64,000 nt of DNA, taken from positions 37,424 to 101,423 of the forward strand of contig JAJYJM010000005.1 of the NCBI GenBank assembly GCA_021789495.1. Reading direction: 5' to 3'. Below, in pieces: positions 39,155 through 62,300 of the stretch. The position numbers were made by a program, and so were the translations under genes. The first letter of the stretch is position 1. Every line of letters begins with the position of its first letter. The DNA comes from Nitrospirota bacterium. GTDB taxonomy: Bacteria > Nitrospirota > JACRHJ01. A model generated the notes under the pieces. It was not told the origin of the DNA, did not search any database, and was given only the letters and a program-made list of their open reading frames with translations.

Positions 39155-39232
39155 GTCCCCCTCGTCTAGCCAGGCCCAGGACACCGCCCTTTCACGGCGG
39201 CGACGGGGGTTCAAATCCCCCGGGGGACGCCA
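39155..39232 (+). tRNA. tRNA-Glu (anticodon TTC)
   Basis: GTCCCCCTCGTCTAGCCAGGCCCAGGACACCGCCCTTTCACGGCGGCGACGGGGGTTCAAATCCCCCGGGGGACGCCA. Confidence 0.95.
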
Positions 39233-39240
39233 AAGAAATC

Positions 39241-39270
39241 AAGGGGTTATCGCAAACGCGATAACCCCTT
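39241..39270. terminator. Rho-independent terminator after tRNA-Glu, facing integrase
   Basis: AAGGGGTTATCGC-AAAC-GCGATAACCCCTTcttgttttt. Confidence 0.85.
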
Positions 39271-39298
39271 CTTGTTTTTGGTGTCCAAATAGTGTCCA

Positions 39299-40339
39299 TC
39301 AGACTACTGGAACCGGAACTTCACTGCCTGATGCTTGGCCTACCAATATAGTGTCCAATGTCTTCACAGCCTGGTTCAAATAGGCGTCAGAAAGATGCGC
39401 ATACCGGCTTGTCATGCGAGGATCCTTATGTCCTAAAAGATGCTGTATTGTCCTTTGGTTAAAACCCGCCATCGTGAGATGAGAGGCAAAAGTATGTCTC
39501 AAGTCATGGAAGCGGAAATGAACGACTCCCGCGCGTTTACAGGCCCTCCGAAAGGCTATGCTCACCTTGTCGCCGGAAATGTCCGGAAAGAGCTTGTCCG
39601 TATCTTCAGAATGCAAAAGTTTTTTCAATACGGTCAATAGCGTATCATTGACAGGTATAATGCGGCGCTCGTTGGTCTTCGTCTTATTCAAGATAATGAT
39701 CCTGTTGGGAAAATCGATGTTGCGCCACCGCAACGCAAGGATTTCACCCCGCCGCATACCCGTATGGAGCGCAATCTGGACAATTGCCAAAAGCGCCTTA
39801 TTCCGGCTACAGGCGGTTAATAGAGCAGAAAGCTCCTGCATATTCAGATACCGGACCCTTCCGGGAGGCTCTTTTAATTGTTTCATGCCTTGAAGTGGGT
39901 TTGTTTTCAAATAGTTCCAACGGACTGCTTGATTCAGCATGGCCTTCAGCAGGTTCGTCTCTTTATTAATCGTTGCCGGGTTTGCGCCTTCAGTCAACCG
40001 CTTGGCCCGGTAGCGTTCCCCGGCATCGAGCGTAATCTCGAAAAGATACTTTTCGCCGAATTGAGGAAGTAGATGTTTTTGGATAATGCCTTCGTCTCTT
40101 TCAAGGGATGTAGAGGATTTGATTGTTTTGGCATAATCAAGATAGCGTTTGCCAAAATCGTGAAAAGTTATCTTCCGGTCTTCAGCGATGCCCAAGAAGT
40201 CCTTTTTCACGATTTTTACCTGGACATCTTTTAAGACCTGTTCCGCTAACTTTTTGGAAGGGCCGACTTTTCTCCTTTTGCGTTTCCCATGGAGATAGTA
40301 GTCAATGTACCAATTCTTTCCCTTTTGATAGACTCCCAT
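39299..40339 (-). CDS. Tyrosine recombinase/integrase
   Basis: TGMRRGEILALRWRNIDF; FHDLRHTFASHLTMAGFNQRTIQHLLGHKDPRMTSRYAHLS. Start placed at MGVYQKG with GGAGG SD (ORF opens at 40390). Confidence 0.93.
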   Translation of the reverse strand: MGVYQKGKNWYIDYYLHGKRKRRKVGPSKKLAEQVLKDVQVKIVKKDFLGIAEDRKITFHDFGKRYLDYAKTIKSSTSLERDEGIIQKHLLPQFGEKYLFEITLDAGERYRAKRLTEGANPATINKETNLLKAMLNQAVRWNYLKTNPLQGMKQLKEPPGRVRYLNMQELSALLTACSRNKALLAIVQIALHTGMRRGEILALRWRNIDFPNRIIILNKTKTNERRIIPVNDTLLTVLKKLLHSEDTDKLFPDISGDKVSIAFRRACKRAGVVHFRFHDLRHTFASHLTMAGFNQRTIQHLLGHKDPRMTSRYAHLSDAYLNQAVKTLDTILVGQASGSEVPVPVV

Positions 40340-40368: not shown

Positions 40369-42780
40369 TTACAGATTCACTCCTTTCCATTCTTTTTGCC
40401 TACGTTGGTTAAGCCATTCTTCCAGATCCCCCTTCCGGAACTTCACCAGCCGTCCGACCTTGATATATGGGACCTTGTTTTGGATCACCCATTCATATAG
40501 GGTGTTCTTACTGATTCCCAAGAATTCTGAAGCCTCTTTCGTATCCATCAACTGTTTCTCTTTTGGAATACGCTCAGAAACAACGCCTTTTTCAGAAACA
40601 ATGCCTGTGGGAGTCACCCTATACAGGAAATCCTTTACCTCGGACGGCAGGCAAAACCTGATTCTTTCCCGCTCTCTCACCGTAAAAGTCTTTTTGGCTT
40701 CAGTCTTAAATATAGACAGCCGATTGCCATCGGAAGAGACTGAGACGACATAATCATAACCCGCCTCCAGACATTTCCGGATATTCTGCATCTCATAACC
40801 AACCTTGGACATGGCCGAAATCTCGATCGCAATCCTCACGTCATCCCGCCTCAACCCCACATCCACCGTCTCCAGCGACCGGGGAATCCGCTCTTCGATA
40901 GCAGCCTTCCACCCGTACAGCTCCGCCTGTTCTTTTATCATTTTTTGCAGATGCTTATGGGAATCCCCTCCCTTGCCTGCCAAAGCGGATTCTTTGACGG
41001 CTAAAACGCTCCTGCTTTTAAGGGCGAGGATTTTAGCCAGGCGTCCTCCGATTCCTTCCCTGGTCTCTTGTTGGGCAAGAAGCCCCTTTTCGATCAGACC
41101 TTCTTTAAGCCTGTCTCCCTTATACCCGCTCAGCCCAAGCTCCTTGTATATTTTGGTCACGAACATTCCGGGATGCAGCGAGACGAATTCAAGGAAAGCC
41201 CGCTCATCCTCTGACAGTTCTTCCTCCGCAGGTAAAGCCTTCTCCGGCTTTTCCAATCGAACAGGTTCAGGCGCTGGGACCTGTTTCTCAGCCTTCTCCG
41301 GCTGTTCCGATTGGGCCGGTTCAGGCACGGAAACGTGTTTCTTCACTTTTCCCGGTTTTCTTCTTTCAATCTCTTCATCAAAATCTTTTTGCCTTTGTTG
41401 AGCAAGCAGGGTCAACTCCTTCCGGGACACCATGTACTTTATGCCAAGTTGTGGACTTCCTCCGCCGGTTCTTTCGCCTTCCCATGGAGAATCGACCTCA
41501 AGCGCCTGGAGCGCTATTATCCCGCCCTCTATTTTGTGTTTCACAAAGAAGCATCGCGGAGGCAGGGTCTGAAGGTCGTCAACTTTATGTTCCCATTTCT
41601 CATTAGCCTCCAGGGTGGAGTATTCAAAAGCCTCTTTCGAGAGGATAGAGGCATCCTGGTGGCTTACCCTGAAATATACCTGGATCCCGGCGTTCCCCAA
41701 GATGAGACTTCTCAGTTCACCGGATATTTGGACCAAAGTCTGGTGCGCCATTATCAGAGATAAGCCGTATTTTCTGGCCTCTGACAAGATAACCATGAAC
41801 GATTCACTGGCAAAGTTTTGGAATTCATCTATATAGAGATAGAAGGGAGTCCTTTGATTGGCCGGTACGTTCGCTCTTCCAAAAGCCGCCATCTGGATTT
41901 TGGCCATAATGAGCGACCCCAGAAGGTCGGCGGCATCTTTGAGACGTCCCCTGTCCAGCTTAACGAGCAAAATTTTTCCGGTGTCCATCGCCTCTCTGAT
42001 ATTGAAAGAACTTTTCGTGGACGAGGCGAACATCTGCCTTATTCTTTCATCTGAGAAGAAGGCATTTATCTTGTTCATTACCGGGTCGATCCAGGCTATC
42101 TGGCTCTTATCGGTCATGGTGTCGAACCTTTGGAAATAATCCCTGGCAATGGAATGGCTGACGTTCTCAAGGACAAGCTTCCTGAAATCCCTTCGCATCA
42201 GGAAGCGCGGCAGTTCGGTCAAGGTCAATTCGGCCTCTCCCAGGGCTATCAGGGAATTCCTCAAAAGGTCTTCCATGCGGACACCCCAGGAGTCGGACCA
42301 TATTTTACGGAAGGCGCTGATAAGCTCATTGACTTGTTCCGAGATTGAAACGTCCGGTAATTTTTCGAGGGGGTTGAAGGTAACGGTAAAATCAGGATCG
42401 GTGGGATCGACAATAATTATCCTGTCGGTTACGTCTTCATTTCCGGCGTGATAATAATCTATAAAGCCCTTTATGTCCTCAACCAAATCCCCGTGCGGGT
42501 CGATGGCTCCAAAACCGTTTCCATTTTCTATATCCTGGCGTATGAGAGACTCAAGGAATTTGGTCTTGCCGGAACCGGTCGCCCCTATGACATAAAAATG
42601 GGTAGCCCTGTCCGCTTCGGCAAGTCTGGCCAGTTGGATGTCTTCTTTGTTTTCGGACCAATACCATCCCAGATCGATGGTCCTGACGGAAGGGTCGAGT
42701 TCAGGCGGCGCTACGGTGCCGGTTTTTTGGGGTTCAGGCTGTTTGTACTTATCTCCGAAAAACCACGTCAGCAAACTCAT
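40369..42780 (-). CDS. VirD4/TraD-like DNA-translocating ATPase with C-terminal wHTH, putative PD-(D/E)XK nuclease-like and excisionase-like HTH regions
   Basis: GATGSGKTKFLESLI; GFGAIDPHGDLVEDI; YIDEFQNFASESFMVILSEARKYGLSLIMAHQ; C-terminal IEERIPRSLETVDVGLRRDDVRIAIEIS; final MDTKEASEFLGISKNTLYEWVIQNKVPYIKVGRLVKFRKGDLEEWL. Confidence 0.82.
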   Translation of the reverse strand: MSLLTWFFGDKYKQPEPQKTGTVAPPELDPSVRTIDLGWYWSENKEDIQLARLAEADRATHFYVIGATGSGKTKFLESLIRQDIENGNGFGAIDPHGDLVEDIKGFIDYYHAGNEDVTDRIIIVDPTDPDFTVTFNPLEKLPDVSISEQVNELISAFRKIWSDSWGVRMEDLLRNSLIALGEAELTLTELPRFLMRRDFRKLVLENVSHSIARDYFQRFDTMTDKSQIAWIDPVMNKINAFFSDERIRQMFASSTKSSFNIREAMDTGKILLVKLDRGRLKDAADLLGSLIMAKIQMAAFGRANVPANQRTPFYLYIDEFQNFASESFMVILSEARKYGLSLIMAHQTLVQISGELRSLILGNAGIQVYFRVSHQDASILSKEAFEYSTLEANEKWEHKVDDLQTLPPRCFFVKHKIEGGIIALQALEVDSPWEGERTGGGSPQLGIKYMVSRKELTLLAQQRQKDFDEEIERRKPGKVKKHVSVPEPAQSEQPEKAEKQVPAPEPVRLEKPEKALPAEEELSEDERAFLEFVSLHPGMFVTKIYKELGLSGYKGDRLKEGLIEKGLLAQQETREGIGGRLAKILALKSRSVLAVKESALAGKGGDSHKHLQKMIKEQAELYGWKAAIEERIPRSLETVDVGLRRDDVRIAIEISAMSKVGYEMQNIRKCLEAGYDYVVSVSSDGNRLSIFKTEAKKTFTVRERERIRFCLPSEVKDFLYRVTPTGIVSEKGVVSERIPKEKQLMDTKEASEFLGISKNTLYEWVIQNKVPYIKVGRLVKFRKGDLEEWLNQRRQKEWKGVNL

Positions 42781-43427
42781 GAGATCCCCAGGAAACCTCT
42801 GGACTTTCTTTCGAGTTTACTCGGGTCTTGATTCAGGGAAATCATCAGTTTATCGACCGCTTTTTGCATACACCGGTGCGCGTTCGTCGTATACGCCCCC
42901 AGATCCTGCTGGTCGAAGAGGTCAAGGTCGCTTAAGCGATGCGGGATGATGTTTACATACGGGATCAAAGACGCGACCGACTGCCAAAGGCTTGGCTTGT
43001 AGGTCAAGAACCAGGACACGTCCAGATTGTTACCGTAGTCCCTGGCACACATGTAAATCTGATACGGTCTAAGCCTGGATGCCTGCTCGATGATGATGAG
43101 AAACTTTCTCTTTTTGCCCATCATGCCCGCTACAAAGCCGGGCGCGATTTCTTTATGCTCCATCCGAATATCGGGAGCCTTGCTTGCGACGATGAATTCC
43201 TCGGTATCGTGGAGTAATTGGTCGCCGTTACCCTGGGCGTTTTCTATGAGGGCGGCCCACGTGTCGCTCACCTGCTCTTTTCTGAGTACGCCGTCAGGAC
43301 CCAAGCCGAAATATAATGCGGCGGCTATCGTTACAAAGCCGATTATTATAAAGACCTTGCTGAAAATGCCCAGGATGATTAATACAAGACCTACCAATAT
43401 CAAAATCCAGATGAGCGGCTTTGACAT
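42777..43427 (-). CDS. Uncharacterised membrane protein with N-terminal TM hairpin
   Basis: MSKPLIWILILVGLVLIILGIFSKVFIIIGFVTIAAALYFGLG then soluble domain; ORF overlaps the TraD-like start by about 4 bp. Confidence 0.6.
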   Translation of the reverse strand: MSKPLIWILILVGLVLIILGIFSKVFIIIGFVTIAAALYFGLGPDGVLRKEQVSDTWAALIENAQGNGDQLLHDTEEFIVASKAPDIRMEHKEIAPGFVAGMMGKKRKFLIIIEQASRLRPYQIYMCARDYGNNLDVSWFLTYKPSLWQSVASLIPYVNIIPHRLSDLDLFDQQDLGAYTTNAHRCMQKAVDKLMISLNQDPSKLERKSRGFLGIS

Positions 43428-43511
43428 TTGGAAACTCCTATTGTGGATTGCTACAACGTTTATTACTTCCAACTATTTAAAATGAAAAAAGCCTGTACTG
43501 ACCCCGGTTTG

Positions 43512-44313
43512 TCAAGCTGCAACTAAGAGAGTATTGTGGCTCTCGTTGAACTCGTTTTCAAATTGTCTGGGCGGTTTGTAGCCCAGGGTTGAGTGCAGGT
43601 ACTGCCCGTTGTAATATTCGATCCAGTTGTCCAGGTCTTTGACAAGTTCATTGTAGCTCATCCATTCCGTGAGCCAGAGGCACTCTTCCTTCATGGTGCG
43701 CATGAACCGCTCCGTGTCGGCGTTGCCCTTCGGGTTGTTGTAGCTCGTGAACGCCTGGTTGATGCCGAGCGTGCCGCACGCCTCCATGAAGCTTATGGAC
43801 GTTGGCTGACATCCGTTATCGGACATCAGGTTCAGCCCTTTGTCCCTCGCTCCGTCCGGGAACTGCTGGTTGACCGCCATGTCAAGCGCCGAGAGCCAGT
43901 CGGCGGACTTGCTCCTAAGCCCGGCCTGGTAGCCGACGACTTTCTTGGTGTACCAGTCCAGCACTATGACGATGTAAACCCAGCCGAGCCGCTCTACCAG
44001 GACCTTCGTCATGTCTATGCCCCACCATTCGTTAGGCCTTGCGGGGCGGGGCTTTGCGGACTCCGTGCGTTTTGCTTTAAGCTTCGTGCCCGGTGTAACA
44101 GTGAGACCGTGAAGCTGCATCAGCCGCTGCACCCGGTTCCTGCTGAACGAGAGCTTGTCTACAAAACGCAGGTGCGCCCATATACGCCGGTAGCCCCAAA
44201 ACGGATGGGCGGCCTTTATCTCTCGGATGCGCTCGACAAGCCCCTCGTTCCGAACGGCGACCTTTTCCGACGGTCTGCGAGGCGGCCTTACTCGCTTTTT
44301 TTTAACTCGTAGG
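43512..44313 (-). CDS. IS3-family transposase OrfB (DDE); upstream part likely reached by -1 frameshifting at A8 near 44302
   Basis: AVRNEGLVERIREIKAAHPFWGYRRIWAHLR (minus-strand reading upstream of the listed ORF) then RPNEWWGIDMTKVLVERLGWVYIVIVLDWYTKKVVGYQ; LMSDNGCQPTS; GNADTERFMRTMKEE. Confidence 0.85.
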
Positions 44314-44551
44314 TCAGCTCGCCAACAAGCCGCTTGAGCTTCCTGTTCTCGGCGTCGAGACGGGCCTCACGCTTGGTGGCCTGGCCGACCTCGAAGGCCA
44401 ACGGCGCGTTAGATAAAAACCGGTCGCGCCACTTGTAATACTGAGTCTGGCTTACCTGGATACTCGTTGCAGATGTCGGCAACGCTCCGGCCCTTCAGGC
44501 CCTCAAGAACGATTGCCGACTTGGTCTTTGCATCAAACTTGCGTCGCTGCA
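44288..44551 (-). pseudogene. IS3-family OrfA with an apparent 1-nt insertion near 44460
   Basis: ATG at 44551 reads MQRRKFDAKTKSAIVLEGLKGRSVADICNEY then shifts; continuation ...QVSQTQYYKWRDRFLSNAPLAFEVGQATKREARLDAENRKLKRLVGELTYELKKSE is in another frame. Confidence 0.75.
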
Positions 44552-44822: not shown

Positions 44823-45527
44823 CTACATTAGCCCCGAATCTCTGAAACTGTAATATTTTTTTTGACCGATAATCAAATGATCATATACTTCAATGTCAAC
44901 CGCAGAAGCAGCTTTCATTAACATTTGGGTAATGTTTATATCAAAGGAAGAGGGCCTTACATTTCCGCTTGTATGATTATGTACGAAAATTAAAGCCGTA
45001 GCCCTATGATAAAGGGCCCTTTCAATTACTCTTCTCGGATAGACCGCCGCCTCATTTAAAGTGCCTTCCTGTAAAGTCTCTATCTCGATAATCTCATTCT
45101 GGATATTTAAAAAAACCACCCTGAACTGCTCATTCGATAAGCTAGCCATACTCATTTGGCAATATTTGATCAAATCCGGACCGCCTCGTATTGAATATTT
45201 TTTACAGGCTTTCTTTTTAAAATAATGAGATGGACAATCTTTTATTAATTTCAAAAGAATAGCGGTATCGGTATCCATCCCCGGAAAAGCAACCAGATTA
45301 TTCAAAGGCTCATCCAATATCTGCGGGAAATCGCCATATTGCGAAATAAGGTTATCGGCCAGATTCCTTATATCCCTCAAAGGCTTTGCATACAAGAGCA
45401 AAAGTTCCAATATTTCACGGTCCGTTAAATATTCAATGCCGAATTTGTAATATTTTCTCTTTAATTCTTTCGGATAACCATGCAGGCTCAACATCCTAAC
45501 CTTCATAAATTCATAGACCTCCTCCAT
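44823..45527 (-). CDS. RadC-like (JAB/MPN) protein
   Basis: MEEVYEFMKVRMLSLHG...LTDREILELLLLYA; FVHNHTSGNVRPSSFDINITQMLMKAASAVDIEVYDHLIIG. ORF opens at 45635; ATG at 45527 follows a GGGGGG-rich SD. Confidence 0.85.
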   Translation of the reverse strand: MEEVYEFMKVRMLSLHGYPKELKRKYYKFGIEYLTDREILELLLLYAKPLRDIRNLADNLISQYGDFPQILDEPLNNLVAFPGMDTDTAILLKLIKDCPSHYFKKKACKKYSIRGGPDLIKYCQMSMASLSNEQFRVVFLNIQNEIIEIETLQEGTLNEAAVYPRRVIERALYHRATALIFVHNHTSGNVRPSSFDINITQMLMKAASAVDIEVYDHLIIGQKKYYSFRDSGLM

Positions 45528-45616
45528 AGAAATACCCCCCACTGTATCAGAAATGCGTTCCGGATGTCTCCTGGTAGAAATACTCAATGTATCTAAAAAA
45601 TATTTTTGCCATGATG

Positions 45617-45629
45617 CCATCAACGATGG
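45617..45629. promoter_or_regulatory. Perfect 5-bp-arm dyad CCATC-AAC-GATGG upstream of luxI-like gene (candidate operator)
   Basis: Located ~31 bp upstream of the luxI ATG in the divergent intergenic region; not a canonical 20-bp lux box. Confidence 0.25.
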
Positions 45630-45659
45630 TGACAAACCTTATAACCGGGGAGGGCAAAA

Positions 45660-46397
45660 ATGGGAACTTCAGTCCTTGAAAAGAACGTCCGCAAGGGGTC
45701 TCACGTCTGCTTTTATGAGGGAGATTACAGCGTGAGGGATATTAGCACGGAGGACGATTTGATGAAGTCGTACCGGCTCAGGCATGAAATATTCTGCGGA
45801 GAATTGGGCTGGGTGCCGCCAAATCCGGAGATGATAGAGATTGACAATTACGATGAAAAAGCGATTTCTTTCGGAGTTTTTAATCCCCAAAATAAACTGG
45901 CTTCTTATCTGAGATTATTGACAGCAGAAGGCGCATTCATGATTGAGCAAGAATTTTCCGAAATGGTGAGTGCCGATCACTCAATACGGCATGATAAGGA
46001 TACTGCGGAAATTTCCAGGCTCTGCATAGCCCAGGAGTCGAGAAGGGATTTGGTATCTACCGAATGCGGGAAACATAGTACTTCTGTTATCATTTTGAAA
46101 GGAATATATACCTGGTGCAAGATTAACGGCGTTCGTTATCTTTATGCGGTGACAGAATACAAAATATATCGACTCGCCTGTGCCAAGGGTTTCCCTTTCA
46201 AATTGATCGGCGAGCCGAAGACCATGCCGGACGGAGTGGTTGCCGTAGCGATGTTACTGGATTGGGAAGAGTTTGAGTTTATCAATACAATCAAGCGGCC
46301 AGAGCTGATAAAATGGTTCAATTTATACCGATCAATCCCAATTGGAACGCAATTGCCACGGCATGAGTCCTATTTACGGCGTCAAGCTTTTGCATGA
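45660..46397 (+). CDS. LuxI-family acyl-homoserine-lactone-type autoinducer synthase
   Basis: R41, F45, W51, D62, D65, R85 match the canonical R24/F28/W34/D45/D48/R68 spacing exactly, and E117xxR120 matches ExxR: YRLRHEIFCGELGW...EIDNYD...SYLRLL...AEISRLCI. GGGGAGGG SD. Confidence 0.88.
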   Translation: MGTSVLEKNVRKGSHVCFYEGDYSVRDISTEDDLMKSYRLRHEIFCGELGWVPPNPEMIEIDNYDEKAISFGVFNPQNKLASYLRLLTAEGAFMIEQEFSEMVSADHSIRHDKDTAEISRLCIAQESRRDLVSTECGKHSTSVIILKGIYTWCKINGVRYLYAVTEYKIYRLACAKGFPFKLIGEPKTMPDGVVAVAMLLDWEEFEFINTIKRPELIKWFNLYRSIPIGTQLPRHESYLRRQAFA

Positions 46398-47055
46398 GCG
46401 AGCCGACATGGAAATTAATGGTTTTTTCGCTGATCCCTAAAATGACGGAAGTATCCCATGAGCTTTTACCCAGGGAAAGCCATTTAAGAACTTCTTTCTC
46501 TCGCGGAGTCAGGAAGATTTTCTTATAGTAAGGGATGGTGGTTGAAACACGGGCAAGAACGTGATGAAGATGAGGTATTACATGCTTTAACACGGTCTCA
46601 GTCCGGGGATCATGCTCTACGGAAGCGCCAGCCAATGAAAAAAGGCTCGCTTCCGTATTTCTTATGTTCCTGACACCATGAGTATACCCTTTTTCAAGTC
46701 CGAAAGAATTGGAGACTTTTAAAAAATTGGCTGGTGGGTTATATTTCTCATACGTATCGGACCAATATTGAATTCTAAAATTTTTGAAGTTGTCAATTAT
46801 TACCGGGTCAATTAAATTGAATTTCTTTGATATATAGAGTTGAAGCCATTCTTGTGAATAGTTAACATTTATAACCTCATAAGAATCTTCGTCCGAGAGC
46901 AAATCTTTCCGACGAAACACGCACGTCGCATAATCAAAAGGGACTATTCTTTTAAGATTATCAATGAAATAACTAAAACTTCCATTGGAATTGCAGGCTG
47001 TCAAGGAGTCAATAAAATCTAATACGTCATTTGAGTCCTTCTTGGAAAGTCTCAT
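46318..47055 (-). CDS. LuxR-family transcriptional regulator with autoinducer-binding domain
   Basis: Y66, W70, Y74, D83-P84, W98 match TraR Y53/W57/Y61/D70-P71/W85 spacing; C-terminal HTH LTPREKEVLKWLSLGKSSWDTSVILGISEKTINFHVGSLMQKLDAVNRTHAVAIA. Confidence 0.9.
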   Translation of the reverse strand: MRLSKKDSNDVLDFIDSLTACNSNGSFSYFIDNLKRIVPFDYATCVFRRKDLLSDEDSYEVINVNYSQEWLQLYISKKFNLIDPVIIDNFKNFRIQYWSDTYEKYNPPANFLKVSNSFGLEKGYTHGVRNIRNTEASLFSLAGASVEHDPRTETVLKHVIPHLHHVLARVSTTIPYYKKIFLTPREKEVLKWLSLGKSSWDTSVILGISEKTINFHVGSLMQKLDAVNRTHAVAIAFQLGLIGIN

Positions 47056-51649: not shown

Positions 51650-53002
51650 TTAAAACAATTTCCCCTGCCTTATTTTAGCGTCCGCATTCCAATTATTTAG
51701 AAGTCCCAATTCAACCTCTTTTCTCGCCCTCCCGTATCTCTTCCTTGACCTCGCAAGAACCTCCTCTTTGTAAGATTTCATCCTTTCCGTCGGCGGCTCT
51801 ATCGTAACCGCGCTAAACGGATTTGACGTTACCCCGTCAATCATCAGTTTGAGGTAAATCTGATGATTGGCAAGATTAACCAGATCGGCCTCCTGAAAAA
51901 CCTGATGAAATTCTCTGGCAAGATATTTGGCGTCTTCCGCCCCGACCCTAAAAGAGATGGTCGTTCCCACGTTGCCGAACACTGCCGGGCGAATCTTTTC
52001 GTCGATCTGCTCGATGTACTGGTGGGCGAGGGTGAGGCTCAGGCCATACTTCCTTGCTTCGGATAAGATGTTTGTAAAAGACAGTGTGAGAAAGTTATGG
52101 AACTCGTCCACGAAGAGGTAAAACGCCCTCCTTTCCTTTTCATCCAAATCTGCCCGGCTCATGGCCGCGAGTTGAATTTTTGTTACGAGCATCGCACCAA
52201 GAAGCGCTGTGTTATCTTCGCCAATTTTCCCCTTCGCCAAATTGACTATTAGTATCTTTCCTTCATCCATTACCTTTCTTAAATCAAATGTATTTTCTCT
52301 TTGACCGACAATATTCCTCAAGGGAGCGCTCGTCAGAAAATGCCCAACCTTATTCAATATCGGGGCTGTCGCTTCTGATTTCATCCATACCGAATATTTT
52401 TCAAACTCGTAAATCCAAAATTCCCTCACCTGCTGGTGGGTAACGTGTCTTAAGACCTCTTGCCTAAAATCCTTGTTCACGAGGAGCCTGGGCAGGTCAA
52501 TTAGACAGCTGTTTGGATATTCAAGAAGAGTTAGTATGGCGTGTCTCAGGATATGCTCAAGCCGCGGCCCCCAGAATTCCGGCCATATCTTTTTGAAGAC
52601 CGAGATCAGCCCTGATGCCACAAGGTGATGCCGGTCGGGGTGGACCTTCTCAAGCGGATTAAAAGCAACCGGATATTCCATGTCCGCCGGGTTGAAGTAG
52701 ATAACATCTTCTATCCTCTCTTTCGGGATAAAATCCAGGATGCCTTCAGCCAAGTCGCCATGCGGATCAATGAGCGCAATCCCCTTTCCCTGTCTAATAT
52801 CCGAGACAAGCATGTTCTGGATCAGCGTGGACTTCCCTGTCCCGGTCTTTCCGATGATGTAGATATGGCTGCTTCTGTCCTGATCCTTGATCCCAAACTT
52901 TTTCCTAACGTCCCGATAATCCGTTATGGCAAAATACGCGACTTGATTTTGATGTGGCTGGTTATTCATGAGCGAATTATCGGTCAACCCATGAAATTTC
53001 AA
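51650..53002 (-). CDS. Second VirD4/TraD-like ATPase (short form)
   Basis: IIGKTGTGKSTLIQNMLVSDIRQGKGIALIDPHGDLAEGIL; LFVDEFHNFLTLSFTNILSEARKYGLSLTLAHQYIEQ. Confidence 0.88.
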   Translation of the reverse strand: MKFHGLTDNSLMNNQPHQNQVAYFAITDYRDVRKKFGIKDQDRSSHIYIIGKTGTGKSTLIQNMLVSDIRQGKGIALIDPHGDLAEGILDFIPKERIEDVIYFNPADMEYPVAFNPLEKVHPDRHHLVASGLISVFKKIWPEFWGPRLEHILRHAILTLLEYPNSCLIDLPRLLVNKDFRQEVLRHVTHQQVREFWIYEFEKYSVWMKSEATAPILNKVGHFLTSAPLRNIVGQRENTFDLRKVMDEGKILIVNLAKGKIGEDNTALLGAMLVTKIQLAAMSRADLDEKERRAFYLFVDEFHNFLTLSFTNILSEARKYGLSLTLAHQYIEQIDEKIRPAVFGNVGTTISFRVGAEDAKYLAREFHQVFQEADLVNLANHQIYLKLMIDGVTSNPFSAVTIEPPTERMKSYKEEVLARSRKRYGRARKEVELGLLNNWNADAKIRQGKLF

Positions 53003-53197: not shown

Positions 53198-53971
53198 TTA
53201 GCTTATATTACTATTAGCCGAAAGGACGGCAAAATTGCCTTCCCCGATAACATCCCCGTAATGGATGAATCCTCCCCTGTAAAGCCTATCGTTGTGAAGT
53301 ATCCGGCAGACCTGCCTCTGAGTCCAGGAGTTGCCGTTTCTTCGTTTGTATCCGTGCTGATTTAGATCATCCGCTATAGCCTGACCTGTGAAACCATCGG
53401 AAGCCAATGCATAAATTTGATTGACTATATCAGCCTCATGCGGATGTACTAAAATTTTCTTGCTCCTTCGGATATACCCGTAAGGCAGATTGCCGCCGGG
53501 AAATAAGCCCTTCCTGGTCCTTTCTTGCCTTCCTTTCTTGAGCCGTTCGATGATGTCCCTTCTATTCTCTTCGGCGATGGCCTCAAGGATCTGCCGGATC
53601 AGGATGTCTTTACGCTCACCGTTATAATACGGCATATCAGATATCAGGACCTTCACGCCGAGATATTTAAGCTCATGGAAAAGATTCTCGGCGATCCTGA
53701 CTTCGCGGGAAAGCCGGTCAAGCGACGGGAGGATAATGGTTTCGATCCTTTTATTCTTACAGTCCCGCATCAGTTGCCTCAGAGCTTTCCGGTCTTCCTT
53801 GACCCCGCTTTCGCCCTCGTCTTTATAGAACTTCTCCACCAATAAGCCGTGCCTCTCCGCGAAAAGAGTGACGTCCCGAATCTGGATGTCTATGCCATGC
53901 CCTTTTTTCTTCTGCTCCAATGTCGAGACCCTGCAATACGCCACTACTCTTTTCTTTTTTTTGCCTTGCAT
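53198..53971 (-). CDS. Serine recombinase (resolvase/invertase N-domain plus recombinase domain)
   Basis: VVAYCRVSTLEQKKKGHGIDIQ; LPSLDRLSREVR; recombinase domain PYGYIRRSKKILVHPHEADIVNQIYALASDGFTGQAIADDLNQHGYKRRNGNSWTQRQVCRILHNDRLYRG. Confidence 0.92.
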   Translation of the reverse strand: MQGKKKKRVVAYCRVSTLEQKKKGHGIDIQIRDVTLFAERHGLLVEKFYKDEGESGVKEDRKALRQLMRDCKNKRIETIILPSLDRLSREVRIAENLFHELKYLGVKVLISDMPYYNGERKDILIRQILEAIAEENRRDIIERLKKGRQERTRKGLFPGGNLPYGYIRRSKKILVHPHEADIVNQIYALASDGFTGQAIADDLNQHGYKRRNGNSWTQRQVCRILHNDRLYRGGFIHYGDVIGEGNFAVLSANSNIS

Positions 53972-57660: not shown

Positions 57661-58071
57661 GTGGAGCTGAAGTTTCTGCGAGTCAAGGAAGGATCCGGCA
57701 AGACCGTAAGCACTCCTCTAAGGATTTCTCGCCTTATGGCCGAGGAGTCCAAAATCGACCGGGAATGTTTCTGGGTGCTTCACCTCAATACCAGCCACAG
57801 GATCATCGACAAGGAACTGGTATCGATCGGGACAGTGGACAACTGCCTGGTTCATGCCAGGGAAATTTTCAAGAAGGCAATCCTTAACGGAGCGTATGCG
57901 ATTATCACGGTGCATAACCATCCGGGCGGGACGGCTCAGCCTTCAAAGGAAGACAGGAGCATTTGGAGGTATCTGGACCAGTCAGGAAAGTTGTTGGGCA
58001 TCGAGGTGCTGGACCACATGATCATCACTCCCACCGACGGGTATTACTCAAGGATTGAGGCAACCCCATAA
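57661..58071 (+). CDS. Second RadC-like JAB-domain protein (GTG start)
   Basis: VHNHPGGTAQPSKEDRSIWRYLDQSGKLLGIEVLDHMII. Confidence 0.9.
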   Translation: MELKFLRVKEGSGKTVSTPLRISRLMAEESKIDRECFWVLHLNTSHRIIDKELVSIGTVDNCLVHAREIFKKAILNGAYAIITVHNHPGGTAQPSKEDRSIWRYLDQSGKLLGIEVLDHMIITPTDGYYSRIEATP

Positions 58072-58087: not shown

Positions 58088-58480
58088 ATGGAAAAGCGAG
58101 GCAGTTTCGTAAACGTCAAGACGAAGGACGGCAGGGTGCTTTTAAGCCTTTTCCCAGCCAACGGGATCATCCTGGAAGGCAGGCTGGATAATGTATTCCA
58201 GCGAACAGAATCCGGGGAAAAGAAAGGCGGAAACGGCAATGGCAAGAATGGAGGAAACGGCGGGAACGGCGAGCTTATGACCTTTCCGCAAAAGAGGCTC
58301 CTGTTCAGGCTTATGGCCCAGGAGGGCGTCGAGGGAGACGAGGCAAACAACCAACTCCTGAAGCTCTTCCAGGTCAATAACTTAAAAGAGGTCGGCAAAT
58401 TTGAAGCCAGCCGGATGATCGACCATCTTTTAAAAGAGGCCAAAGGAGAAGGAGGCGACAACGGTGGAATACCTTTCTAG
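58088..58480 (+). CDS. Gly/Asn-linker hypothetical protein between RadC-like and nuclease genes
   Basis: ESGEKKGGNGNGKNGGNGGNGELMTFPQKRLLFRLMAQEG...; overlaps next gene start by 17 nt. Confidence 0.65.
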   Translation: MEKRGSFVNVKTKDGRVLLSLFPANGIILEGRLDNVFQRTESGEKKGGNGNGKNGGNGGNGELMTFPQKRLLFRLMAQEGVEGDEANNQLLKLFQVNNLKEVGKFEASRMIDHLLKEAKGEGGDNGGIPF

Positions 58481-59228
58481 CAGCCAAATCAACCTGTACC
58501 TGCTGTGCAGCCTGAAGTACAAGTTCCAGTACATCGATAAGCTTCCTAGAGTCTTCAGGCCATCGGCTCTGGCATTCGGCAGCGCCATACACTCCGCCAT
58601 TTCCTGGCTCCATAAGGAGCAGATGAACGGCAACACCGTCACCTTGGAAAATCTGCACAGGATCTTCAGCGCCGACTGGTACGTCCAGAAATCCGATCTT
58701 GAGGTCAAATTCAAGTATGGAGAGGTGGAGACGAACCTGCTGGTAATGGCCAAGGAGATCCTCAGTCTGTATTTTCAGAACCCGATTAAGGAGGTCAAAG
58801 GAAGTGAGGTCCCGTTTTCCGTGGCATTAATTGATCCGGCGAATGGCAAGGAACTGGGAATCAATCTGGACGGTTTTATCGATCTCATCGAGAAAGATGA
58901 TACCATTGTCGAGTTCAAAACCTCGGCTCAGACGATGTACCCCGGAGACGTGCATGAGCATCTTCAACTGACGGCATACAGCTATGCCTATGAAATGCTT
59001 AACCACAGGCCGCCGAAGAAGCTCAAGATAATCGACTTCGTCAAGAACAAGAAGCCAAAGATGCTGACGTTCGAGACGACGAGGGACAAGCAGGACCACA
59101 AAAGGTTCTTCCAGATTGCCAGCCGGGTACTGAACGGGATACAGCACGAGGTTTTCATTCCCAAGCAGACCTTCATGTGCAAGGACTGCGAATATGAAGG
59201 GCCGTGCAGGGCTTGGGGGAAAAGCTAA
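58464..59228 (+). CDS. RecB/Cas4-like PD-(D/E)XK nuclease
   Basis: YLSSSQINLYLLCSLKYKFQYIDKLP; GINLDGFIDLIEKDDTIVEFKTSA; QLTAYSYAYE; C-terminal Cys cluster CKDCEYEGPC. Confidence 0.85.
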   Translation: MEYLSSSQINLYLLCSLKYKFQYIDKLPRVFRPSALAFGSAIHSAISWLHKEQMNGNTVTLENLHRIFSADWYVQKSDLEVKFKYGEVETNLLVMAKEILSLYFQNPIKEVKGSEVPFSVALIDPANGKELGINLDGFIDLIEKDDTIVEFKTSAQTMYPGDVHEHLQLTAYSYAYEMLNHRPPKKLKIIDFVKNKKPKMLTFETTRDKQDHKRFFQIASRVLNGIQHEVFIPKQTFMCKDCEYEGPCRAWGKS

Positions 59229-59335: not shown

Positions 59336-62300
59336 CTAATTCGCCAGACTCCATTGGGCCTGGAGATAGACAAGAAGCCTGTCCATATCCATGCGCGTGC
59401 TGCTTGTATCGGCGGAAGTTATTTTCTCCAGCGTATCGATAGCATTTGTAAGGTCTGCGATATTAGTGTCAATGGCGTCTTTCGTATTGGCCGTATTTGA
59501 AGCTATATTGGAGAGCGTGCTGTTGATGTTTGCAGCCAAGTTTGCATCCTTTGAGCTAAGGGCCATACCGTTAAGGGATGCCGTAATATCATTGATTATG
59601 TCCATCTCGTTTCTGTCTATGTTCAATGTAAGGGACGCGCTCTTGTAGAAGTTATACTGCCCGTTGTAGAGATAGCTCACGCTGCTGTCGGTTTCGATTG
59701 TCGCCTTGTAGCTCGGCATACGGAGCAGGTAATCAAAATCCTTCGTCTCATAGTCTCCGAGAGTATATAGCCAGGAAAGTGGAGCGGTCGTGGACGCATT
59801 TGCGGCTTCTATCAACTGCGCCTCGCCTGGGATGGTCTCGTCCAGCCTTATCCCAAGCTGCTTACCGAGGTTCTTTATTTCCACGGTAATCGGCTGGACT
59901 GAAAGCGGGATTACCTCGCTTGCGTTATTCGTAGGCGTGACATAATACAGGGAATTCGTCAGCGTCTGCTGCACCAAAGGATCGGTGGAGTCGGCGGCAT
60001 CGAAGGTAAACAGCACAGAACGGCCCTCGCCGTAAAGATTGGTTATTATGGCCGGAACTGTGTCTATAGAAGCGAGTGTGGCGACGACCTTCCCCCTCGT
60101 AACCGTTGTGTTCACGCCGCTCGTGTCGATAGTTGTCGATGAGGGCGCTGTTACCAGGCTGCTGTAAGCGCTAAACGTATAACTGCCCGTCTTGAGATTC
60201 CCGTTGAAGCTAGCACCGAACACGTTATCGAGCACCGGCAGCTGGTCGGGCAGGGTCTTTATAAATACCATGCCGTTGCCACCATTGACGGCCTCTACGA
60301 GCTCGTCTTCATTTAAAGTCAGACCGGCAGTCAGGTTCTGGTATGGTTCCTGGTTCTCCACAATGAGATAGACATTGTACAGGCCGGATCTTACCGCCGT
60401 TTCAAAGTCGGCGGGGTCGGTTACATCCTGATATGAGATGTTGCCCTGAGTCAGAAGCGCATCCATTACGCTCTTAGCCGGGTTCGGGCCCGTCGGAAGG
60501 TCCTTGACATAGCAAAGGACTCTCGGCCAATTGCCGCGCATCTTGGTTATCTGCAACGGCGGAAGTACGGTAAACGGAGAATCGGCTATCTTGTATTCAG
60601 TGCCGTTCACCACCGCGACGAGGCTGAGAATATAATTACCCGCCGGAACCTGTAGATTGGCAAGCGTGATTGCGCCGGACGTGCTCGCGGTAACGGCAAG
60701 GTCGAGGTTCTGGCTCTGGCTGGCCGCTTGTTGACTCGTGTCGGCAGTCAATACTTCTGCCGTAAGTGTCCCGCCCTGGATGGGAACGTTGCCGTAGTTG
60801 TTGACGTTGAAGTTTACTCCCAGGTCCTGGCCAATAAATACCTGTTGCGCGCTGAGGTTGATGGAACCTTGAAATTCCACCGTCGGCAGAATGGTGAATC
60901 CGAGTTTATTGTATGCATAAGTCTGTTGGCCCGTAGAGGAGGTCAGCGTCTGTCCGATGGAGTAATTTCCGGGTGCATATATGCCCGTGTTCCAGGTAGT
61001 GCTGATTCCCGCCACACCCATTGGCGAAACAGAGGCTATGGTGTCCGTCTTTTCGGTTATGGTCGCGCCGTTCGGATCTAACATATCCGTCTTGAGTATC
61101 AGATTGCTGAAGGCAACCGTGGAAGACAAATCCGTAATCCGGGAGCTTACGGAGACATCGTTATGCGCGTTATAGCTCCCCTGCGGAAGGCTGTTGTTCA
61201 TCAGGATGTCGGGTAAGTTGAGCGCCATTGAAGTCTGGTTGTTCTGCCTGGTGAATTCCGTTACGAGATTGTCGGGATCGGCTGTGACGTAAATCGTATG
61301 CGCGCCCGCCTTGCCAAGTATGTTCCAGTTCTGAGTAACCTGCTGGATCGCTTCCGGTTGCAGCGCTCCAATCGGCTGTGAGCCTATCAGTTGTCCGCCA
61401 TTGGCCGGATCGCCATCGTAAAAGGCCACGGTCGTCTGTCCGGATGCCGTCTTCCCGGAGTTGGTAACCAAAGCGCTCAGCGTGCAGTTTATGCTCGTCA
61501 TTGGGCTGAATGTCGCACCGGAGACCACGAGAACGGGAAGGTCCGTGCCATAATCGAATGTGGCGGTCTTTTGGCTGGTCAGTCCTTCGGACAACAACGT
61601 GGCGGTCATGGTATGGTGGCCGGGTGTTATGTTCGGCAGAATTGTAGTCATAGTCGAGAAGCCGTTTAGCGTAACTGTATTGGAGGCCGCCTGGTTATTG
61701 TCCACGAGTACAGAAAGATTGCCTGAGGATGTCCCGAACAGGTTGAGAACGGCCTTGACCGGCTCGGTATTCGTCGGGTATTGAGCCTTGTCGGTGGAAG
61801 CGCCCAGGAGCACGGCGTCGCCTACATCGAACGCATTCGAGCCGGAGCACAGCATTAAGCCTGTCTGGTCATAAATGCCGTACACGAGCTTATGAATACC
61901 GGCCAGGGTCGTATTGATCGGCACGGAAACGTTTTGAACAAGATTGGAGTCGGTCGTCAAATTAACGTTGGTTTCTCCCGTAGCTGTAGCTTTGCCCGAC
62001 GGGTCTATTATCCAGGTCTTTATTACCGCAGGAATCGCCGAATTGCTATTTATCGTCAAGGTGGTATTTATCGTATCCGTGGGAGCGTATTTGCCCTTGT
62101 CGATGCTGCTCTCAGGCACCTTGACCTGATAACCGTTGACATCGAACGGCGTATTCCCGCTTGCAAGCACACTGCCGGCGGCGGTCAGCCGGTATGTCAA
62201 ACCATATGTCCCCGCCGTCATCGGGTAAGGTAGTGCGAAGCTTATGCTCCCATTGCCGGTGAAATTAATCGTGCTGGAATTTGTGAAGCCCGGAGCCGAG

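Follow-up and report, generated by a model that had tools for sequence, protein, structure and literature searches.

A VirD4/HerA-like ATPase fused in frame to a PD-(D/E)XK-type fold and an Xis-type DNA-binding domain next to an integrase gene in Nitrospirota

Domain architecture of the fused protein

The window analysed here is a 64,000-nucleotide stretch from a Nitrospirota bacterium. Positions 40369–42780 of its minus strand form a single open frame of 803 codons, encoding an 803-residue protein, P0001. The protein is an in-frame fusion of an ATPase motor, a winged helix, a domain with PD-(D/E)XK-type fold and a C-terminal Xis-type helix-turn-helix (HTH) module, all read from the same strand. 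As the initial annotation had proposed, the N-terminal part contains a VirD4/TraD-type ATPase core (VirD4/HerA-like; residues ∼53–385, 41626–42624): TrwB_AAD_bind (PF10412) matches at residues 59–375 (2.7e-11; 43.4 bits, cutoff 20.5) and TraG-D_C (PF12696) at 9e-07 (29.3 bits, cutoff 22), both above the Pfam gathering thresholds. The Walker A motif is GATGSGKT (residues 66–73, 42562–42585) and the Walker B motif YLYIDEF. Scores against named T4CP families stay below the curated cutoffs (59.3 versus 366 bits for SXT_TraD, 40.2 versus 250 bits for CD1115 VirD4). A related, short VirD4-like ATPase is encoded elsewhere in the island (51650–53002, minus strand; 40% identical over the core).

A crude hydropathy scan found no N-terminal transmembrane domain in P0001 itself (the top 19-residue value is 1.24). 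The gene immediately upstream (42777–43472, minus strand), which overlaps the fusion gene by 4 nucleotides, encodes a 231-residue partner with an N-terminal hydrophobic hairpin, related to small proteins that precede the ATPase in three other loci (L042, L056, and L069). Pieces of an IS3-like transposase lie just upstream of the partner gene (43512–44482, minus strand) and may affect its promoter.

The middle of P0001 (residues ∼450–743) has no meaningful Pfam match. We modelled residues 522–803 together with eight relatives using AlphaFold (mean pLDDT 82) and obtained, in order, a winged helix, an α-β-β-β-α-β domain, a linker predicted to be disordered (pLDDT <50) and the HTH. The winged helix suspected behind the ATPase (residues 522–598, 40987–41217) was recovered by both the model and a fold search. 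The α/β domain (residues 600–722, 40615–40983) reaches a pLDDT of 92 when modelled alone, and Foldseek matches it to EcoT38I (4.3e-4, TM 0.56), AF1548, R2 endonuclease, Bax1, R.BspD6I2, Can2 (TM 0.62) and Hjc, all known as PD-(D/E)XK-type folds. A sequence-only search of the PDB with this domain returned nothing significant. His-608, Glu-629, Asp-640, Glu-653, and Lys-669 are invariant in 11 relatives, whereas the position of the canonical catalytic lysine is occupied by Ser, Thr, His or Glu among them, and reads E-x-S in P0001 where E-x-K is expected. Of the PD-(D/E)XK-like region first noted here, the fold thus stands and the full active site does not. The invariant Lys-669 sits in the next helix after the missing canonical lysine, for which it may or may not substitute. 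These models point to the core fold of the PD-(D/E)XK nuclease superfamily; nuclease activity is uncertain.

The C-terminal module was annotated as the last 59 residues (40372–40548), and database profiles agree: HTH_17 (PF12728) covers residues 744–794 (40399–40551) at 2.9e-15 (56.7 bits, cutoff 27), and the NCBIfam model "excise" (TIGR01764) scores 3.3e-13 (49.8 bits, cutoff 28.8). A tyrosine integrase gene (int; 39299–40339; Phage_integrase, 3.7e-38) follows directly downstream on the same strand, again as first described. Its frame opens at 40390, and the ATG at 40339 is preceded by AAGGAGG; we consider 40339 the likely start, so that int and the fusion gene probably do not overlap. Within the fusion gene, an ATG at 40548 corresponds to the position where free Xis proteins begin and has a weak ribosome-binding-like AAAGAG upstream. 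Translation from this codon may also yield free Xis.

Unfused relatives and recurrence of the fusion

Three relatives encode the same parts in the same order as separate genes: an ATPase-winged helix-nuclease protein, a stop, 60–85 nucleotides, a free HTH_17 protein and int. These are L041 (the locus of G003, a Nitrospirae MAG of the same genus), L036/L054, and L037/L055. L041 lies at the same tRNA-Glu as the window's locus, and the integrase gene of L054 overlaps a tRNA-Arg. The fused HTH matches the free HTH proteins with pairwise E-values of 1e-8 to 1e-11, and an HTH directly precedes int in five loci. Because homologues encode this HTH on its own, in a gene placed between the ATPase-nuclease and int, the module matches a normally free Xis and is best read as the excisionase (recombination directionality factor) of the downstream tyrosine integrase. 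Three further loci (L042, L070, and L071) show, by inspection of their sequences, a serine-recombinase-like frame after the nuclease-bearing one.

The same fusion, with its linker and a following int, is present in L040, an Anaerolineaceae MAG contig (PWSY01000151.1) whose protein is 62% identical to P0001 (64% at the nucleotide level). An IMG/VR locus, L069, encodes a homologue of the long form that ends in an HTH_17 domain of its own (1.1e-10); no int lies directly behind it. In both the ATPase and the nuclease tree L069 is nested among long-form proteins that lack the HTH; its fusion is therefore most simply independent, and the join would have arisen at least twice, once in the P0001/L040 lineage and once in L069.

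The two halves of P0001 appear to differ in descent. In the tree of ATPase cores, P0001 and L040 group with short stand-alone ATPases, including the one at 51650–53002, with moderate support (87/89); in the nuclease-domain tree they group with L041, L054, and L055, the xis-int-linked lineage (97/95). P0001 thus looks like a mosaic, with ATPase and nuclease drawn from different lineages. Recombination joining a short ATPase to a winged helix-nuclease-xis-int tail would explain the mosaic trees.

We considered whether the fusion has its home in Chloroflexota and rejected this: only 1 of 400 genomes carries it, so the 3-kb contig of L040 may reflect misbinning or a recent transfer. The L040 frame (2–2293) reads GATGTRKT at the Walker A position where P0001 has GATGSGKT, which may reflect an inactive motor or an error in sequencing. 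Plasmid and phage records match at the level of the ATPase only, none of them reaching 80% query coverage, and when the HTH was part of the query, a search of the Desulforudis phylum was swamped by ordinary HTH_17 genes.

Insertion site and linker DNA

The integrase gene is separated by a 13-bp stem-loop, terminator-like on both strands (39241–39270), from a tRNA-Glu (ttc) gene on the plus strand (39155–39232). Similarity to the genus-mates G001–G004 (G003 being represented by L041) stops just after this tRNA, at 39242–39244. In G002, where similarity ends at 39242, the site is empty and tRNA-Glu is followed by tRNA-Lys within 210 bp. These comparisons indicate that the element is integrated site-specifically at the 3' end of tRNA-Glu. 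The tRNA-Lys flank in G000 lies on another contig (C22:1251), so the insertion measures at least 25 kb. A 76-bp stretch at the end of a 1506-residue frame (59372–59447) is 75% identical to positions 1055–1130 at the start of that contig. We found no second att copy (attR) in the draft genome, the right end lying beyond the contig end, and recognised no relaxase or mating-pore (T4SS) genes among the island proteins scanned (∼25 kb assembled, the island running off the contig). Comparison of the window (39155–40339) with L041 (3009–4161) reveals two different elements in one genus at the same tRNA-Glu, with integrases 32% identical.

The DNA encoding the disordered linker (40552–40602, minus strand), upstream of the HTH-coding part, is constrained at the nucleotide level. 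An identical run of 31 nucleotides shared with L040 (about 40573–40602) spans the linker, a length reached in 1 of 2000 codon permutations, and synonymous conservation between the two loci peaks there (97 of 5000 permutations). The block carries [AG]TTGTTTCTGA twice and AGAAACAG in inverted orientation at 40552–40559. In the four 90-nucleotide regions preceding xis in the window, L041, L054, and L055, we counted TTCTG/CAGAA 13 times (comparison with random windows from these loci gives p ∼0.0007); TTTCTG occurs seven times (p 0.001). The TTTCTG-type enrichment before xis is present with or without the fusion. We tested RNA structure as a cause and rejected it, with folding z-scores near 0. An exact 29-mer of the linker was absent from viral contigs, and allowing up to three mismatches in 20 relatives gave no hit outside the window's own genome. 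The group-17 HTH factor RdfS, which sets directionality for the tyrosine integrase of ICEMlSymR7A, binds both attP and the promoter of its own gene (PMC11963761), and by this precedent a candidate Xis operator is the simplest reading of the block. The linker is probably such an operator read through as protein.

Possible functions and known systems

The combination of a motor, a nuclease fold, an Xis and an Int suits an element able to excise itself and to handle its own DNA. With moderate confidence we read the open frame as an excision-and-DNA-handling gene of an integrative element, in which an Xis serving the downstream Int is fused to a VirD4/HerA-like motor with a nuclease fold. The Xis module would bind the TTTCTG repeats in the DNA encoding its own linker, giving autoregulation, and would also bind the att arms; Int and Xis would excise the element from tRNA-Glu; and the motor joined to Xis, tethered to the membrane by the 231-residue partner, would thereby be loaded on element DNA, which it could process or translocate. 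Physical coupling of excision to DNA transfer through the fusion, as initially suggested, is a plausible hypothesis. Several observations count against this reading: the canonical lysine of the nuclease fold is missing, no attR, relaxase or T4SS gene was recognised in what is assembled, the fused HTH of L069 has no int directly behind it, the Walker A motif of L040 deviates, and ICEth1, discussed below, excises without TdtA. A bolder version makes the excisionase a working domain of a DNA pump: the att complex would load a membrane-anchored motor-nuclease, so that one protein performs excision and export in an element with no classical T4SS, an arrangement evolved repeatedly. We consider this version rather unlikely.

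It is possible, if somewhat doubtful, that there are two products and no coupling: xis would have been joined in frame, translation from the ATG at 40548 would supply most of the working Xis, and the tail on the ATPase would be a tolerated by-product. In favour, L041, L054, and L055 encode Xis as a free protein, the HTH module begins at the ATG in P0001 as it does in L040, and the linker is predicted to be disordered; yet only the weak AAAGAG stands before this ATG, and the fusion is kept over ∼38% amino acid divergence in L040 and recurs in L069. The HTH might alternatively be a targeting or regulatory domain of the motor-nuclease, acting for instance at an origin of transfer or in defence, its place before int being coincidental. 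HTH_17 is a general DNA-binding family, L069 lacks an adjacent int, and the P0001 motor resembles the defence ATPase mad8 (5.8e-17). The repeated position of the HTH before int and the "excise" score above its cutoff speak against this idea, which we regard as improbable. Its defence variant can be set aside for the MADS system, since MAD1, with a cutoff of 80 bits, scores 45.7, and the island proteins scanned include no recognisable methyltransferase. That two genes were joined by an error of assembly or sequencing would fit a draft genome whose closest same-genus relative keeps the genes apart. This is, however, ruled out in practice by L040, an independent assembly with the same in-frame fusion and linker, and the other two frames of the stretch carry stops in the window; we give it next to no credence.

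Returning to the reading as an excision-and-DNA-handling gene, a literature search found no paper describing an ATPase-nuclease-Xis fusion. The recurrent Xis fusion would be a new feature of an already known kind, motor-bearing integrative elements. To our knowledge, TraJ of pIP501 has no nuclease or Xis domain. The two-piece TraI/TraJ coupling protein of that conjugative plasmid resembles P0001 and its partner in keeping the membrane part on a distinct polypeptide, encoded just ahead of the motor (PMC4981023). The plasmid also has a relaxase and T4SS, neither of which was recognised in the assembled part of the Nitrospirota island. Actinobacterial AICEs (tra-rep-xis-int) cluster a DNA translocase, xis and int in an integrative element, but combine an FtsK-like Tra with a Rep protein and leave xis unfused (PMC3218068). 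RdfS is a free small protein with demonstrated excision and binding, whereas the P0001 HTH is fused and predicted from sequence (PMC11963761).

The nearest working analogue is the TdtA-NurA pair of ICEth1 from Thermus thermophilus. There the HerA-like TdtA and a NurA-like nuclease drive DNA donation from a tRNA-integrated element, and excision is independent of TdtA (PMC5365140). Both elements combine a HerA/FtsK-type motor, a nuclease or nuclease fold and their own recombinase at a tRNA gene. In ICEth1 the NurA-like nuclease stands alone as its own polypeptide, an Xis fusion is not known to be reported, and DNA donation was tested by experiment, whereas the Nitrospirota element is known from sequence (PMC5365140).

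The timing of excision versus transfer in mobile elements is usually explained by shared regulation. A directionality factor and a motor in one protein would constitute a directly testable physical link, and the repeated fusions and operator-like linker offer concrete handles. The loci also connect ATPase/PD-(D/E)XK modules that are otherwise anonymous, in Nitrospirota, Bacillota, Bacteroidota and IMG/VR contigs, with islands that carry recombinases.

Other genes of the island merit brief mention. A Cas4/RecB-like PDDEXK_1 protein (58464–59228, plus strand) accompanies the short VirD4-like ATPase in the island, and a similar ATPase/PDDEXK_1 pair lies side by side in an IMG/VR contig (L108, 8692–11227). 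Two genes encode RadC domains (44823–45635, minus strand; 57661–58071, plus strand), and a short serine recombinase (53198–53971, minus strand) has a Recombinase domain that is incomplete, matching 54 of 102 positions, and is probably truncated. A luxI-type synthase gene (45660–46397, plus strand; Autoind_synth, 4.5e-17) and a luxR gene (46318–47055, minus strand; Autoind_bind, 3.7e-21) are convergent and overlapping; this pair is a candidate quorum switch for the element that might place excision under quorum control.
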